A DNA stretch of 64,000 bases, taken from contig JACRLT010000026.1 in assembly GCA_016235185.1 (NCBI GenBank), positions 1 to 64,000 of the forward strand, read 5' to 3'. The notes under the pieces were generated by a model. That model was not told the DNA's origin. It saw nothing but the letters and a program-made list of their open reading frames with translations, and made no database searches. The DNA comes from Candidatus Omnitrophota bacterium (GTDB lineage: Bacteria > Omnitrophota > Gorgyraeia > Velamenicoccales > Velamenicoccaceae). This document shows positions 2,757 through 33,000 of the stretch, piece after piece (the first letter of the stretch is position 1; each line of letters begins with the position of its first letter). The position numbers and the translations under genes were made by a program.

Positions 2757-3342
2757 TTACCTTAAATACGCGGCGACATTGGCCATTATATGCCTGGCAG
2801 CTTCAGGCCTTTTGAGCGTAGTCTTTAATCTTACGCAGCCTAAGATCATTTACCAGAAAATGCTGGAAGAACAGGCTAGCTTAAAAGAGGTTTTGCCGCA
2901 GGCCGCAAATTTCGAACCGGTCAAAGAGGGCGAAGATATAATTTATTACAATGCTAAAGATGCGGGCGGCAATATCATCGGATACGCTTTTAAGGCTTCG
3001 AAAAAGGGATATTCCAGCGATATCGTTACCATGGTAGGCGTAGATACCGATGGTGTCATCTCTCACATTAAGATACTTTCGCAGAATGAGACCCCGGGAT
3101 TAGGCACGAGGATCTCCGAAGTTATCCAGAAAGAGACGCTTTGGGATATAGTGCTAAAAAAAGTCAAGCTTGGTTTGCCTCCGGCACCCTGGTTCCAGGG
3201 CCAATTCGACGGCAAAAGGGCCGAGGCCCTAAAAGGTTCTGTCAACGTCATCACCGGCGCGACGGTTTCTTCGCGCGCAGTCATCGATTCCATTGAAAAC
3301 AAGGCAAAAGAGATCATGGAGAAGGTCAAGCATGGACAATAA
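2743..3342 (+). CDS. rnfG: Rnf complex subunit RnfG (covalent FMN)
   Basis: This 199-residue protein has one N-terminal transmembrane helix (about 8-30) followed by an FMN-binding domain. The flavinylation motif TGATVS includes Thr174, the expected site of the phosphoester-linked FMN added by ApbE. No apbE gene is in the window. The gene sits second in the operon, before rnfD, whereas the common order is rnfC-D-G. It overlaps rnfC by 14 bp and rnfD by 11 bp, implying translational coupling. Confidence 0.94.
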   Translation: MLKSNYLKYAATLAIICLAASGLLSVVFNLTQPKIIYQKMLEEQASLKEVLPQAANFEPVKEGEDIIYYNAKDAGGNIIGYAFKASKKGYSSDIVTMVGVDTDGVISHIKILSQNETPGLGTRISEVIQKETLWDIVLKKVKLGLPPAPWFQGQFDGKRAEALKGSVNVITGATVSSRAVIDSIENKAKEIMEKVKHGQ

Positions 3343-4318
3343 ATTTTTTGTATCTTCCTCTCCGCATATAGCAAAGAAAGAAGACGTCTCGATAGTTATG
3401 TGGACGGTAAATCTTGCCCTGGCGCCTGCGGGTATCATAGGTATTTATATATTCGGCCTTCATTCTCTTTTACTTGTCGCAGCCTCCACCATTGCCGCGG
3501 TTTTGACAGAAGCTTTTATGCAGAATGCCCGGCGTCAGAAAGTGACAGTTTCCGACGGAAGCGCTTTCATGACAGGGCTTTTATTGGCGTACAACCTGCC
3601 GCCAAACTGTCCGCTTTGGATAGGTGTTATAGGCAGTTTTTTTGCAATTGCTATTGCCAAGCAGGCCTTCGGCGGCTTAGGAAGGAATATCTTCAACCCT
3701 GCCTTGGCTAGCCGAGCATTTCTTTTAGCGGCCTGGCCAAAGCATATGACTGTTTTTGCCAAACCTTTTGCCTATGGCGTTGATGCTGTTACACAGGCAA
3801 CGCCTTTGAGCCTTTTAAAAGAAGGCAAGGCTTCCGGTCTGGTTGATATGGGCTTGAGTTATTGGGATCTGTTTATCGGCAACAGGGGCGGCTCTTTGGG
3901 CGAGGTTTGCATATTAGCCTTGTTGTTAGGCGGCCTTTACTTATTATATAAGCGTATCATCACCTGGCATACGCCGTTGAGCTTTATTTTGACCGTAGGT
4001 ATTTTTACGTGGGCCTTTGGTTCAAAACAGGGGTTCTTCCAAGGAGATTTTTTATTTCACATACTTTCCGGCGGCCTGATGTTAGGCGCGATCTTTATGG
4101 CTACCGATTACGTGACCTCGCCTATTACCAAAAACGGCCAGGTTATTTTTGGCGTATGTTGCGGCTTATTGACCGGTATCATAAGGATCTGGGGCGGGTA
4201 TCCCGAAGGCGTATGCTATTCCATCCTCATCATGAATTCAGTTGTTCCTTTGATCGACCGCTTTGTTAAGCCCAGAAGATATGGCATTGTCAAGGTGAGA
4301 GAAGAGGGTAAATCGTGA
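3332..4318 (+). CDS. rnfD: Rnf complex subunit RnfD (membrane, covalent FMN)
   Basis: RnfD/NqrB-family integral membrane protein, 328 residues from ATG 3332. That start is preceded by GGAGAAGG and lies inside the end of rnfG; a start 39 bp further upstream is open but lacks this site. Family motifs are GRNIFNPALASR and the flavinylation site DAVTQATPL with Thr157 as the predicted FMN acceptor. Multiple transmembrane helices carry ions and electrons across the membrane. The stop overlaps the GTG start of rnfE. Confidence 0.94.
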   Translation: MDNKFFVSSSPHIAKKEDVSIVMWTVNLALAPAGIIGIYIFGLHSLLLVAASTIAAVLTEAFMQNARRQKVTVSDGSAFMTGLLLAYNLPPNCPLWIGVIGSFFAIAIAKQAFGGLGRNIFNPALASRAFLLAAWPKHMTVFAKPFAYGVDAVTQATPLSLLKEGKASGLVDMGLSYWDLFIGNRGGSLGEVCILALLLGGLYLLYKRIITWHTPLSFILTVGIFTWAFGSKQGFFQGDFLFHILSGGLMLGAIFMATDYVTSPITKNGQVIFGVCCGLLTGIIRIWGGYPEGVCYSILIMNSVVPLIDRFVKPRRYGIVKVREEGKS

Positions 4319-11214: not shown

Positions 11215-11271
11215 TAAGTTTGTTCTTTAGATATGATCGCGGGGTGGAGCAGCCTGGTAGCTCGCAAGGCT

Positions 11272-11911
11272 CGATGGACACAAAGCTCAAAGCTGATGTT
11301 GCGGAATCAGCAGTACAAACAGAACTTCTGAAAAGAGGTTTCAGAGTACTGCAACCTGTAGGGGATCGATTACCTTATGATTTAGGTGTTGATCTTTTAG
11401 GGAAACTCATCCGTATTCAGGTGAAGAGTGCTTGGTACAATAAAAAAGATGCGTGTTATGTTGTTGATGCGCGTCGAACCAAGACAAATCGCCGAAGGAT
11501 GTTGCGGCAACGTTACAATGCCGATGATTTCGATTTCGCAATAATCTATCTCGCTGACAGGCATGTGTTCTATGTTTTGCCTATATCTGAATTTGCTCGT
11601 TATGGCAGCACCATAACATTGGTAGAATCAGATAAAAGGCAGCGTAGGCCAAGGTCAGCAGAGTATAGAGAGCGGTGGGATTTGTTGTCTAATGGGTCCC
11701 TCAGCCGGTAACGGTTGATGGAAAACCTGTCAAATTCGGTGGAACCCTAGACGTTAAGTCAAGGCAATACCGAGCCAAGTCCACCAAGAAGTACGGTGGG
11801 AAGGTGTAGAGACTAGTTGGCAGGAGTCCTTTTAAAAAGGACTAAGGTATAGTCCAGACTACAAATCTGTCAGGGATTGTGACAGAGCAGCGAAAGCTGT
11901 AGTGAGTAAAG
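11272..11911 (+). mobile_element. Group I intron in tRNA-fMet
   Basis: The 640-nt intron ends in the terminal G at 11911. The catalytic core follows the internal reading frame: P7 is GACTA (11811-11815) with TAGTC (11850-11854) inside the hallmark AAGGTATAGTCC, and P8 is the hairpin 11825-11843. The reading frame fills the 5' half, and its ATG is only 2 nt into the intron. This is the same tRNA gene type and endonuclease type as the Synechocystis tRNA-fMet intron (recalled). The subgroup (IC-like) is not resolved. Confidence 0.9.
11274..11711 (+). CDS. Group I intron homing endonuclease, PD-(D/E)XK (I-Ssp6803I-like)
   Basis: A 145-residue protein starting at ATG 11274 just inside the 5' splice site. 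It has the PD-(D/E)XK layout of the I-Ssp6803I family: Glu11 in the first helix, Asp36 in PYDLGVD, and Gln49-x-Lys51 in IRIQVKSAW, followed by YVVDARRTKTNRR. The length matches the about 150 residues of I-Ssp6803I, which cuts intronless tRNA-fMet genes to drive homing. A longer open frame starts 54 bp upstream in exon 1, but that would place tRNA sequence in the protein. Confidence 0.88.
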   Translation: MDTKLKADVAESAVQTELLKRGFRVLQPVGDRLPYDLGVDLLGKLIRIQVKSAWYNKKDACYVVDARRTKTNRRRMLRQRYNADDFDFAIIYLADRHVFYVLPISEFARYGSTITLVESDKRQRRPRSAEYRERWDLLSNGSLSR

Positions 11912-11953
11912 CATAACCTTGAGGCCGTCCGTTCAAATCGGACCCCCGCAACC

Positions 11954-11989
11954 AAATTTAAGGCCACCCTTCTGGGTGGCTTTAAATTT
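11954..11989 (+). terminator. Strong hairpin directly after tRNA-fMet
   Basis: A 16-bp stem (11954-11969 with 11974-11989, one G-T wobble) closed by the loop TTCT starts at the final A of the tRNA CCA. The right arm ends TTTAAATTT. It fits an intrinsic terminator or 3' processing signal for the tRNA. The rest of 11990-12070 has no gene. Confidence 0.75.
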
Positions 11990-18911: not shown

Positions 18912-20768
18912 GTGACGGGCACGTGTAAACAGCTTGAGGGTGAAAGTCCCTTACCCAACCTGATGGAGGTGAAGGGTCGGCAAAGCGCAAGGGCATTTTT
19001 GCGAGGAAATGTCTGAAGGAAGCGCCGAGCAAATCACATGAGCCGATGAACAAGAACCGCATAGGAGGCGCACGCGCCGGTAGAGTTGGCTGGTTACAAC
19101 AAATACCATATCCATCAAGGGTGCAAAGCGTAGATGCGGCGGCTGTGTGTGGAAGGCGGTTTATACTTACCCCGTGAGGTCTGCGGCGTGTCGTCATCGA
19201 CTTAGCGTATCGTAAGATGCGCCCAATGCGCCGTAGAAGTCAGCAGAGAGCGTAGTACCGTAGACAACGGGAAGGCTCAAACGGTTAAAGGATAAGTAAG
19301 ACGCAGAACTTATGGACGAGCACAGGCAGAATATCCGTGAAAGGGACTTACGCAGGAATGGAAAGAGTGAAGCTTTGACCATCTTTGCGCAAGCGACCGA
19401 TACGTCCATAGCGGACTGCATATCTGAACGTCCGGCAGCAACGACGATGCTTATGGAACAAGTGTGTGCGAGTAGCAACATGGCTGGTGCGTTGAAACGG
19501 GTGCAGACGAACAAAGGGAGCTACGGAGTAGACGGTATGCACGTGGAAGAGGTAGCAGAGTACTTAAGAGAACAGTGGCCGCGGATACAGCACGAATTGT
19601 TCTCAGGTACGTATAAACCAAGTGCTGTCAGGCGCGTGGAAATACCCAAAGCATCAGGAGGGATACGTAAGCTTGGCATACCCACGGTGGTGGACAGAGT
19701 TATTCAGCAGGCGGTTTTGCAAGTGCTGCAGCCACTCTATGATAAGACATTTTCAGAGAACAGCTACGGTTTTCGTCCGGGCAGGTCAGCGCATCAGGCA
19801 GTGCTCAAGGCGCAGGAATATATACGCGCAGGGTACGCCTATGTCGTAGATATAGACCTTCAAAGCTTCTTTGATAAGGTCAACCACGACCGGCTGATGA
19901 GTCGATTGGCAAGACGGGTAGAAGATAAGCGGCTGCTAAAACTCGTCCGGGCGTATCTTAACGCTGGTATTATGGAAAACGGTCTGGTCAAACCCGCTAC
20001 CGAGGGCACTCCGCAGGGCGGTAATCTCTCGCCGCTGTTGTCAAATATCGTCTTGGATGAGCTTGACAAAGAACTCCTGGCACGAGGGCATAGGTTTGTA
20101 CGCTACGCCGACGACTGTAATATCTACGTTAAGAGTAAACGTGCAGGTGAACGGGTTATGACGGGAATAAGCCGTTTTATTACGAAACGGCTTAAGCTCA
20201 AAGTCAACCTCGCCAAGAGCGCGGTTGATATACTATCCAATCGCAAATTCCTCGGATACAGTTTTACCAAAGAGGCGGTACCCAGAATTAAAATCGCTCC
20301 TCTGGCGCTTGAGCGTTTTAAGAGACGGGTACGGGAGCTCACCAACCGGAACAAGAGGGTGAGCTTTGCAGTCTTGGTGAAAGGGCTGATGGTATATGTG
20401 CGGGGATGGATGGGTTATTACCGGCTGTGTCAGACACTATCGGTACTGACAGCCCTTGACTCATGGATACGTAGGCGTATCCGCTGTTGGTTGTGGAAGC
20501 AATGGGAAACGCTTGCCAACCGCACAGCGGAACTTGTCAAGCGAGGCGTAAGTAAGAAGGATGCACACATGACAGCGTGCAAAGGCAGAAGGTTATGGGC
20601 GACAACCAGAGATAAGTACGTGCAACTGGCGCTGCCCAATGCCTACCTGAAATCGCTGGGTATTAAGCCGTTAGCGTCGTTTATAACTGTATAATTAACC
20701 GAACCGCCGTATACGGAAAACCGTACGTACGGTGGTGTGACAGGGAAAGCGGGCGACCGCCTACCTAT
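18912..20768 (+). mobile_element. Group II intron
   Basis: The 5' end is placed at GTGAC 18912 and is followed by the typical domain I segment GCTTGAGGGTGAAAGTCCC. A reverse transcriptase lies in domain IV. Domain V is the about 34-nt hairpin around 20704-20737 (ACCGCCGT ... GGAAAACC ... ACGGTGGT), and domain VI follows, ending CTACCTAT near 20768. The exact 3' boundary is ambiguous because the domain V/VI end is duplicated in tandem. The region 18912-19311 before the ORF is intron RNA and holds no other gene. Confidence 0.82.
19312..20694 (+). CDS. ltrA: Group II intron reverse transcriptase/maturase
   Basis: 460 residues. The RT blocks run in order: YGVDGMHVEE, IPKASGGIRKLGIPTVVDRV, SYGFRPGRSAHQAV, YVVDIDLQSFFDKVNHD, GTPQGGNLSPLLSN and the catalytic RYADD (Asp267, Asp268). 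A maturase X domain (VRGWMGYYRLCQ) and a short tail follow; no HNH endonuclease is visible, so mobility would be endonuclease-independent. This, with insertion next to a hairpin, suggests a class C-like intron, not proven. Confidence 0.92.
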   Translation: MDEHRQNIRERDLRRNGKSEALTIFAQATDTSIADCISERPAATTMLMEQVCASSNMAGALKRVQTNKGSYGVDGMHVEEVAEYLREQWPRIQHELFSGTYKPSAVRRVEIPKASGGIRKLGIPTVVDRVIQQAVLQVLQPLYDKTFSENSYGFRPGRSAHQAVLKAQEYIRAGYAYVVDIDLQSFFDKVNHDRLMSRLARRVEDKRLLKLVRAYLNAGIMENGLVKPATEGTPQGGNLSPLLSNIVLDELDKELLARGHRFVRYADDCNIYVKSKRAGERVMTGISRFITKRLKLKVNLAKSAVDILSNRKFLGYSFTKEAVPRIKIAPLALERFKRRVRELTNRNKRVSFAVLVKGLMVYVRGWMGYYRLCQTLSVLTALDSWIRRRIRCWLWKQWETLANRTAELVKRGVSKKDAHMTACKGRRLWATTRDKYVQLALPNAYLKSLGIKPLASFITV

Positions 20769-20823
20769 GTCGATCGTACGGTGGTGTGACAGGGAAAGCG
20801 GGCGACCGCCTACCTATGTCGAT
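20726..20823 (+). repeat. Perfect 49-bp tandem duplication of the intron 3' end
   Basis: 20726-20774 and 20775-20823 are identical over 49 bp, covering the 3' strand of domain V, all of domain VI and 6 bp of exon (GTCGAT). Only the first copy can pair with the intact 5' half of domain V. The second copy leaves a spare domain VI and a second candidate 3' splice site. Confidence 0.92.
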
Positions 20824-30010: not shown

Positions 30011-33000
30011 CTATCGCCTTCCTTTTATCCCTGCCTCTATCTTTGTCTCTAAAATAGGTTTCTCGGCGCCCAGCGGTATGCCAAGGTCATATGTGGGTAT
30101 GACCTTTTGGCCTTCGGGGAAGGCTACCTTAATATTAGCAGAGTCTGATAGTTCCTCAAAAGATATCGGGCTTGTAGTCATCCGTATTGTTGAGGTGACG
30201 CCTTCAAACATCGAATCTACTGATGTCGGTAAAAGATCCTGTGTATTGGCGCCTAAAAATGTCTCTTTGGTCAAAGGTGTCGATGTCTGGGCTGACGGTA
30301 GAATGCCTGTAAAGCTTTCGGTTATATCTTGCGGCACTGCGGCCTCTGATGTGACACCGCTAAAGTTTTCGGGTTGCTTGGCCTGGGATGTTGTTGCTAT
30401 GCCCTCAAAGACTTCAGGGGTGATGCTTTCAGGCAAGGCCTGTGAGCCTTGAGCGCCTTCAAAAGAAGCTCGAGGCAGGACAACTGGTACTTGAGGCATT
30501 GTAATGGGTATTGCTACTGGCGCCGGGCCCATGGGTGTTGCGAGCATAGAGATGAGGTTCAAGGGCGGCGGTGTCAAAAGGCTTTGGGGCATGGCAGGCA
30601 TTGAATTATAAAGGTTGCTCTCCCCCTGCTCCAAAGAGCTTCTGATAGCTGCCTGGCCTACATGCGGCGAGAGGCCGCCATTTACAAATACAAATCCCGG
30701 TATAGAGTTTGAGAAGCTGTAGTTACCCGAGCCTGATATTGATACAGAGACATTGTCCTGCATCTGTGATGCCGAGATAGTCAATGTGCCTGATACAGAA
30801 GTTATGACAGGGCTGCCTAAAGAGCCTACAGAGCCGTTTACCGCAAGTATGACGTCCTCGCCCTCCAGGATGCCTGTGGATGAGCCTGTCAAGTCGCCTG
30901 ATATGGTTATTGTAGAGCTTCCTGCGTTAAGTGTGCCGTTTAAGGCAACGTCGCCTGTTACTGTCAGAGGTTGTCCCCCTGTTGAAACACTCCCGCCTTC
31001 TTGAACTGTCAACTCTGTCAGGGTCTCTGAACCACCTAACACAGGCTCAAAAGGTGTACCGCTAGGTATCACTACTGTGTCTGTTGAGGAAGGTACTAAA
31101 CCTAAGTCCCAATTGGCTGCGTTGTTCCAGTCGCCTGATACAGTGCCTGTCCACGTATAGACTGTGCCGTTAGCGCTCAATATCCAGTTAGTGGTAGTGC
31201 CGTTCAATGTTGAACCTGTGCCTTTTGCTACCAACGCTAGGCCTAAAGACGCATCGTTATTGGTGACTGTGACATTGTCCAGGTTTTGGGTTGCCCCTGC
31301 CTGTAACGTTAACTTAGGCACAGCCCCTGCACCAGTATCGTTTAAGACGATAGGATTGCCTGATGTACCTGTTAAGGTCAAGTCATGCGTGATCGTCTGG
31401 GTCGTGCCGCGCGTTAGACTTAAAGTCTTACCTGCTGTTATTGAAGCCAGATTATAGAAGGTGGTTGAGCCAGAGATGACAGAGGTGCCGGTGCCGCTAA
31501 AAGTGACGGTTGACGTTGACGGCGTGAAGCTCGTGACGCCCGACCAGTTACCGACGATGTTAATCGCGGCTGCGCCTGTTGCGGTTAAGGTGCCGACGGT
31601 GAAGTTGCCGTCAATGTCTAAGGTACCTGTTGAGATCGTGATGGTGCCGGAATTAGCGGCATTGCCTGTGACGCTTAAGGTATTGGCGCCTATGGCAAGG
31701 GTACTTGAGGCGTTATTGGTTAAGGCGCCTGAGACAGTTGTTGTGCCTGTGCCGAGCGTATACGTAGGTGTGCCTGAAGCAGGCGTGAGTGTTAAGTTTT
31801 GGTAATTGACCGCAGCTACAGTAGCCGATGTGCTATTGGTATAGACCACGGTGGAACCTGTGCCTTTGTTAAAGGCACCGGAAGAGTTGATAGTCAGAGG
31901 TGTTCCTGTGCCTGTCAAGGTTAAGGTATAAGACCCTGCGCCCAAGTTAAAGGTTGTGCCATTACCTATATTTAGCGAGGAAACCGTCAAATCATCCGTC
32001 ATGGTGACAGTGGTTGTGCCTGAAGTGGCTACAGCACCCAGGTCATTAGGCGTAGCATTGGCATCAGAGGCGTTCTGTGTGGTACCGTCAAAGGTAAGCG
32101 TGCCTGTGCCTTTGGTCCACGTAGCGCCTGAACTAATAGAGAGATTGCCGGAGATATTGAAATTGGCCTTGTTTGCTGTAACTGTACCGATTGAGAACGT
32201 CAAATTACCATTGACATCTATTGTGCCTGCTGTGCTGCTGGGGCCGGTGATAGTGCCGCCGGAAATCGTCAGGCCGCCATTGAAGCTTGCGCCAGTACCA
32301 CCGCCATAGCTTGAAATAGCCAAGCTGCCGCCGCTGACAGTGGCAAGGCCTGTCACTGTGAGGCCTGTTCCTGAATTTTGAAAATCAATAGTGCCGGAAG
32401 AATTCGTAAATGTACCGGTTACCGAGAGGTCATCAATAGGACGCATCGTGCTTGCACCGGAATGAGCCAGGTTATAAAAGTTTTGGTAATTGTTAGTTAT
32501 ATCCTGGAAGCCGGAGGACTTATTAAAATCAACTGTTGAGGATCCGGCGGTGAAGGTATCATTGTTCGTCCAGTTGCCGCCTACATACCATGTAGATGTA
32601 TTAGCGGTGATGGAATTATTTCCGGAGCCATTGTAAATCGTGACATTGCCGTTTATATCTATTGTGGATGAGCCGCAGATTAGTTTGCCGTAAAAGGTAT
32701 TGGGGTCTCCTATAACTAAAGCGCCGGCAGTAATACTAAGATTATTGGTATTGAGCGTCCCGTAAAACCCAAAATTCCCGTTTTTGTCGTAAATATACAG
32801 GGTCTTACTGCCTAAATTAAGGCTGGTCCCGCCACCTAAAACACCGGTGGCTGAGGCGGTTGCACCGTTTACAGCCAAATCACAGTCATAAGTGCGGGCA
32901 GTTACCGGAGCAGCTGTGCTTCCGCTAACCGCAAAATATTCAAAATATCCTGCGCCAGTGATTGTGCCGGTAGTGGAAATATGCGGGCTGCTGTCATTAA

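Follow-up and report, generated by a model that had tools for sequence, protein, structure and literature searches.

Group I introns in bacterial tRNA-Leu, tRNA-Ile and tRNA-Arg genes are small, reside in the anticodon loop and follow a 5' exon ending in U. For the initiator tRNA gene (tRNA-fMet), an intron with the homing endonuclease I-Ssp6803I was reportedly described from Synechocystis PCC 6803 by Biniszkiewicz in 1994 and by Bonocora & Shub in 2001, and 2OST is the solved structure of the enzyme. To our knowledge, this single cyanobacterium is the only source from which the system has been described experimentally so far. Here, we analysed a stretch of 64,000 nt of DNA from a Candidatus Omnitrophota bacterium (referred to as the window), in which a tRNA-fMet gene is interrupted by an insert. 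The tRNA is the same as in Synechocystis PCC 6803, and the intron, 640 nt in length, is similar in size to the 655 nt listed for that organism (PMC1995217, table). The predicted enzyme is homologous to I-Ssp6803I over its length, and its ORF likewise sits in P1 and overlaps P1/P2. The layout is therefore the known one, since the Synechocystis ORF has the same location, with an overlap of 61 nt with P1/P2 (PMC3073962, Table 1) as compared to about 19 nt from guide sequence to stop codon here. Further differences concern the protein, which is 53% identical to I-Ssp6803I and belongs to another phylum and another clade, and the anticodon stem, which reads CAAGG/CCUUG instead of the stem with three G-C pairs. 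As compared to the introns of tRNA-Leu, tRNA-Ile and tRNA-Arg, the location in the anticodon loop and the U at the end of the 5' exon are alike, whereas the tRNA and the site are others. At the level of the protein family PF11645 (PDDEXK_5), of which the enzyme is a member, there is no difference.

That the element is a real, intact member of a known system and not a new system is well supported. We put at roughly 94% the probability that a mobile self-splicing group I intron with its homing enzyme has been found in one initiator tRNA gene, and that it circulates mainly among Omnitrophota. The anatomy of the locus, covariation, homology, distribution, empty sites, ORF-less copies and the congruence of intron and enzyme, all read directly, underlie this estimate.

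The split tRNA-fMet gene and its insert

Joining of the two exons (Table 1) yields a complete 77-nt tRNA according to ARAGORN, and inspection of the letters together with the ARAGORN output reveals the anticodon CAU, a C1-A72 mismatch and an encoded CCA end. The unspliced gene was missed when ARAGORN was run on the window. Initiator tRNAs normally contain three G-C pairs at positions 29-41, 30-40 and 31-39 (PMC11497404). The tRNA-fMet of the window departs from this pattern, as its pair 29-41 is A-U. The same A29-U41 pair is present in 158 of those 215 genomes of the Omnitrophota sample in which pattern matching revealed an intact initiator tRNA gene; it is common in Omnitrophota, independent of the presence of an intron.

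When the own genome (an assembly of 1.79 Mb, 91.6% complete) was probed with the spliced tRNA, just the two halves were matched and no second initiator tRNA was found. The sole other tRNA-Met(CAU) gene detected in this genome has a G1-C72 pair and is therefore an elongator rather than an initiator. As no second initiator tRNA was found, splicing would be needed for viability; that is, the cell depends on removal of the insert unless an intact copy sits in the portion of the genome that the assembly lacks. That an intact second tRNA-fMet could be absent from the assembly is also one of the points that speak against our preferred explanation.

Table 1. Features of the split tRNA-fMet gene in the window, followed by related loci elsewhere (positions with a locus prefix).
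Feature	Position	Strand	Basis or remark
5' exon of tRNA-fMet	11238..11271	+	ends in U33; 100% match to first part of spliced-tRNA query
Group I intron of 640 nt; omega G, its last nucleotide, at 11911	11272..11911	+	RF00028; boundaries shared by 49 ORF-bearing loci
P1 5' strand (GGCU of the exon, CG of the intron); U11271 precedes the splice site	11268..11273	+	P1 pair counts
Homing endonuclease ORF (predicted), 145 aa, I-Ssp6803I type, in P1 loop	11274..11711	+	PF11645, 2OST
P1 3' strand UGGGUC (internal guide sequence), part of the coding region	11693..11698	+	GGG kept in all alignment rows; P1 counts
P2 hairpin UCAGCCG-GUAA-CGGUUGA	11701..11718	+	93.9% paired; changes on both sides at 7/7 pairs
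P3	11726-11731 with 11819-11824	+	94.5-100% of cells paired (range for P3, P4, P6a)
P4	11735-11740 with 11769-11774	+	94.5-100% of cells paired (range for P3, P4, P6a)
P6a	11780-11785 with 11795-11800	+	94.5-100% of cells paired (range for P3, P4, P6a)
P7 pseudoknot	GACUA 11811-11815 with UAGUC 11850-11854	+	100% of cells paired
P8	11825-11831 with 11837-11843	+	84.8% paired; changes on both sides at 7/7 pairs
P9	11866-11872 with 11880-11886	+	81.8% paired over 6/7 pairs; seventh in gappy column
P9.1 hairpin, GAAA-capped	11888-11891 with 11896-11899	+	100% of cells paired
3' exon of tRNA-fMet	11912..11954	+	C34 to encoded CCA; 100% match to query 35-77
tRNA-Arg(UCU) group I intron with second, diverged PF11645 nuclease	L002:1320-2045, contig C7		E 2e-29; split U34/C35
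tRNA-Asn(GUU) intron, ORF-less	L095:1322-1650, contig C44	-	RF00028, 76.4 bits; split U35/U36
23S rRNA group I intron, LAGLIDADG-type-looking ORF	L096:1329-1667, contig C6	-	ORF judged by eye
Example of nuclease gene outside the intron	L055:2484-3440		read base by base

The insertion point lies between U33 and C34. The Rfam model RF00028, which has a gathering cut-off of 50 bits, matched positions 11674-11873 with 63.7 bits (E 7.9e-14). Helices P2 to P9.1 of the window sequence were assigned manually, and their pairs were then scored in 40 aligned introns from many phyla, that of the window among them. Standard pairs filled 93.5% of the pair cells in this alignment as compared to 30–44% when the partners were slid by one to three columns, and 38 of the 50 pairs exhibited changes on both sides. 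In P1, U33 faced G in 67/67 cases, C32 paired with G in 67/67, G31 paired with C or U in 67/67 and the pair at +1 formed in 67/67. An alternative P1, in which exon GGCU pairs with AGCC (11703-11706), was rejected: it competes with P2, and its segment is not the conserved one. The segment GGGC/GGGU is present in all relatives. A total of 49 loci with and 18 loci without the ORF share this insertion site, and both the U33|C34 boundaries and the terminal G are identical across the 49 ORF-bearing loci. Judged by its sequence and covariation, the insert in tRNA-fMet is a group I intron.

The initial annotation had placed the split gene at 11238-11954, and these coordinates proved correct. It also had proposed an intron between U33 and C34 with P7/P8 core elements, which could have failed if a search with RF00028 did not recover the core helices; the search did recover the core, P7 is paired throughout and P8 covaries. 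The exons had been said to rebuild a perfect initiator tRNA with the C1-A72 mismatch. The full tRNA, its CAU anticodon and the mismatch hold, but the word 'perfect' has to be dropped in view of the A-U pair at 29-41. The claims regarding the enzyme hold: the 145-residue PD-(D/E)XK protein does contain E11, D36, Q49 and K51, and it groups with I-Ssp6803I and not with an unrelated nuclease family.

The ORF in the P1 loop

The product of the ORF matches PF11645 over its full length with E 5.7e-43 (Pfam), far above the cut-off, and the crystal sequence of I-Ssp6803I (2OST) is matched over residues 2-139 with E 2.6e-45. With the catalytic positions numbered as in the initial annotation, 14 diverse homologues, once aligned, show no variation at D36, Q49 and K51; the window protein also has E11, where the 2OST chain has Q. 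On this basis, the ORF is predicted to encode an I-Ssp6803I-type PD-(D/E)XK homing enzyme.

The ORF occupies the loop of P1. The start codon follows the 5' splice site by 2 nt, the last codons double as internal guide sequence and 5' strand of P2, and the stop codon UAA (11709-11711) is located inside the GUAA tetraloop of P2. Because the start codon lies 2 nt inside the intron and no clear ribosome-binding site of its own was found for it, it is uncertain how, and how well, the enzyme is expressed. The motif AAGG of the exon might come into question as a Shine-Dalgarno sequence, but its distance of 4 nt from the start codon looks too short to assert such a role. According to the 'core creep' idea, the overlap of the ORF with the ribozyme is predicted to vary (PMC3073962). 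Indeed, in 48 of the 49 ORF-bearing loci the guide sequence is read through by the ORF and the stop codon lies about 9 to 135 nt past its start, at positions ranging from P1/P2 to well past P3. These varied stop positions fit the prediction.

Splicing, DNA cleavage and homing are extrapolated from the known family and would proceed as follows. The precursor would fold such that exon GGCU pairs with the internal guide sequence, with U33 opposite G. The ribozyme would then cleave 3' of U33 as well as at the terminal G, and ligate the exons to a functional tRNA-fMet. In tRNA-fMet genes that lack the intron, the PD-(D/E)XK enzyme encoded in the P1 loop would make a cut across the anticodon, and repair of this cut would copy the intron together with the ORF into the gene. 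That intron and enzyme travel together is shown by the data below.

Distribution, empty sites and phylogeny

The enzyme is encoded in 37 of the 384 sampled Omnitrophota genomes; the sample includes seven further members of the window's family, and 7/7 lack it. Its closest counterpart in the Omnitrophota sample, at 85% identity, belongs to another family, and its best ten relatives in public genomes, at 74–79% identity, are mainly Omnitrophota as well. Empty sites were detected in a member of the same genus (G117) and in G055, G166 and G226 of the same family, in which the anticodon region continues uninterrupted beside an ftsB-like gene. The empty site of G117 adjoins a scaffold gap, with the sequence across the insertion point being continuous. 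These empty sites in the own genus and family point to recent spread within Omnitrophota. In yet another member of the family, G075, the insertion site is occupied by an ORF-less intron of 252 nt, which falls into the same small intron clade as that of the window.

The latter copy bears on the strongest competing explanation, namely that the element has decayed to a ribozyme that still splices and an enzyme that no longer homes. Decay does happen: among the relatives, the ORF is interrupted by in-frame stops in G320, G162 and G126 and is broken in L015, and G075 lost its ORF or never had one. However, the ORF of the window is intact with all catalytic residues kept, and the coexistence of empty and occupied sites within one genus suggests recent movement. 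We therefore regard decay of the window copy as rather improbable, albeit as the only rival of some weight.

Phylogenetic analysis placed the window enzyme in a clade of 37 rows that is dominated by Omnitrophota (support 100/99), and I-Ssp6803I as well as the cyanobacterial copies fall outside of it. The tree of the intron cores agrees in outline with the enzyme tree, and enzyme and intron-core distances are correlated (Mantel r 0.74, p 0.0005, 67 loci). A single Omnitrophota enzyme clade was neither rejected by the AU test (p 0.152) nor demonstrated; in view of this value the enzyme sequences alone cannot prove particular jumps between phyla. The family as such occurs at the tRNA-fMet site in more than a dozen phyla. 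The simplest account is that the element moves chiefly among Omnitrophota, with older exchange between phyla.

The initial annotation had suggested transfer of a matched intron and enzyme between distant phyla at the same site, to be checked by a phylogeny of both. The match is borne out by the correlated distances and the broadly agreeing trees. The transfer survives in part: presence of the family at this site in so many phyla speaks for it, but the window copy belongs to the Omnitrophota-dominated clade and not with the cyanobacterial copies. If Omnitrophota had recently received the tRNA-fMet intron and the gene for I-Ssp6803I directly from cyanobacteria, as this scenario would imply, this could explain the same tRNA, the same enzyme family and the same P1 position of the ORF as in Synechocystis (PMC3073962, Table 1). 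However, enzyme and intron of the window both reside in Omnitrophota-dominated clades apart from I-Ssp6803I and the cyanobacterial copies, and the identity of 53% to I-Ssp6803I contrasts with 74–85% to other Omnitrophota, which makes this scenario very unlikely. Direct long-distance transfer is not needed to explain the window copy. Finally, an assembly chimera, or a chance ORF near a tRNA fragment, can practically be dismissed: although this is a draft assembly (55 contigs) and the genomes of close relatives were assembled from metagenomes, the intron follows the enolase and ftsB-like genes on a contig of 96 kb, dozens of independent genomes contain the same intron with the same boundaries, and the order ftsB, tRNA-fMet is common to the related genomes wherever it was read.

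Nuclease genes outside the intron and further introns

At 18 loci, the intron in tRNA-fMet is ORF-less and the nuclease gene is found just downstream of the tRNA, roughly 50–240 nt away and often after a terminator-like hairpin. Such loci occur in cyanobacteria (e.g. L036, L038 and L039), Bacteroidota, Margulisbacteria and Omnitrophota; in addition to the example in Table 1, they include L027, L032 and L034. On the tree, at least six changes between the inside and the outside layout are needed. Three viral contigs (L083, L084 and L085, around positions 3001-3500) contain a stand-alone gene of the I-Ssp6803I type, followed at a distance of approximately 40 nt by the phage's own CAU tRNA, which is uninterrupted and has an anticodon stem unlike that of the usual target. 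ORF-less introns of Nostocales exhibit apparent remnants of the 3' end of the ORF, a similarity that base pairing could explain. Our literature search, which was incomplete, returned no report of such introns in Omnitrophota or of the layout with the gene outside.

These arrangements raise a tentative idea, against which we consider the odds to be somewhat stacked: the I-Ssp6803I-type family might switch repeatedly between a location inside P1 of the tRNA-fMet intron and a separate gene downstream, with phage copies residing beside their own CAU tRNA. The enzymes would then be hunters of anticodon loops on different tRNAs, and the outside copies, provided that they still mobilize the neighbouring intron, would form split homing units with it.

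The own genome contains three further group I introns, in tRNA-Asn, 23S rRNA and tRNA-Arg (Table 1), so that four were found in total. The location in the anticodon loop and the U at the end of the 5' exon are also seen for the tRNA-Arg and tRNA-Asn introns. The tRNA-Arg(UCU) intron, which was not detected by the RF00028 model, carries its enzyme in another part of the intron than the P1 used in tRNA-fMet. Close relatives of its nuclease occupy tRNA-Arg introns elsewhere in Omnitrophota (L161-L165); one genome, L166, has a gene of this type just downstream of a split tRNA-Arg. The same two arrangements exist here as in the tRNA-fMet family.

Several side observations concern other elements. 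A small GIY-YIG-like ORF (judged by eye) at L002:790-1130 comes after a sequence that repeats part of the 5' end of the neighbouring tRNA-Pro, as though the ORF had been inserted at this tRNA. In several Omnitrophota families, a PD-(D/E)XK-like gene occupies a conserved place just before tRNA-Thr (L168-L174); NCBIfam matches were below threshold for the one gene examined. Within the window, a group II intron is located at 18995-20774 (matches to RF02001, RF01998 and RF00029), and ARAGORN called an 88-nt tRNA-Asn at 31834-31921 that lacks support from the Rfam tRNA model. The latter is probably a false call, as the real tRNA-Asn appears split on contig C44.

For annotation, our data mean that tRNA finders miss the tRNA-fMet here and at least two more tRNAs of this genome. 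With the locus described here and its relatives, the system is extended from one cyanobacterium to an uncultured phylum and to more than a dozen others. The comparative set, which comprises empty sites, ORF-less introns, ORF-bearing introns and introns with the gene outside, makes it testable how enzymes and introns join and part.
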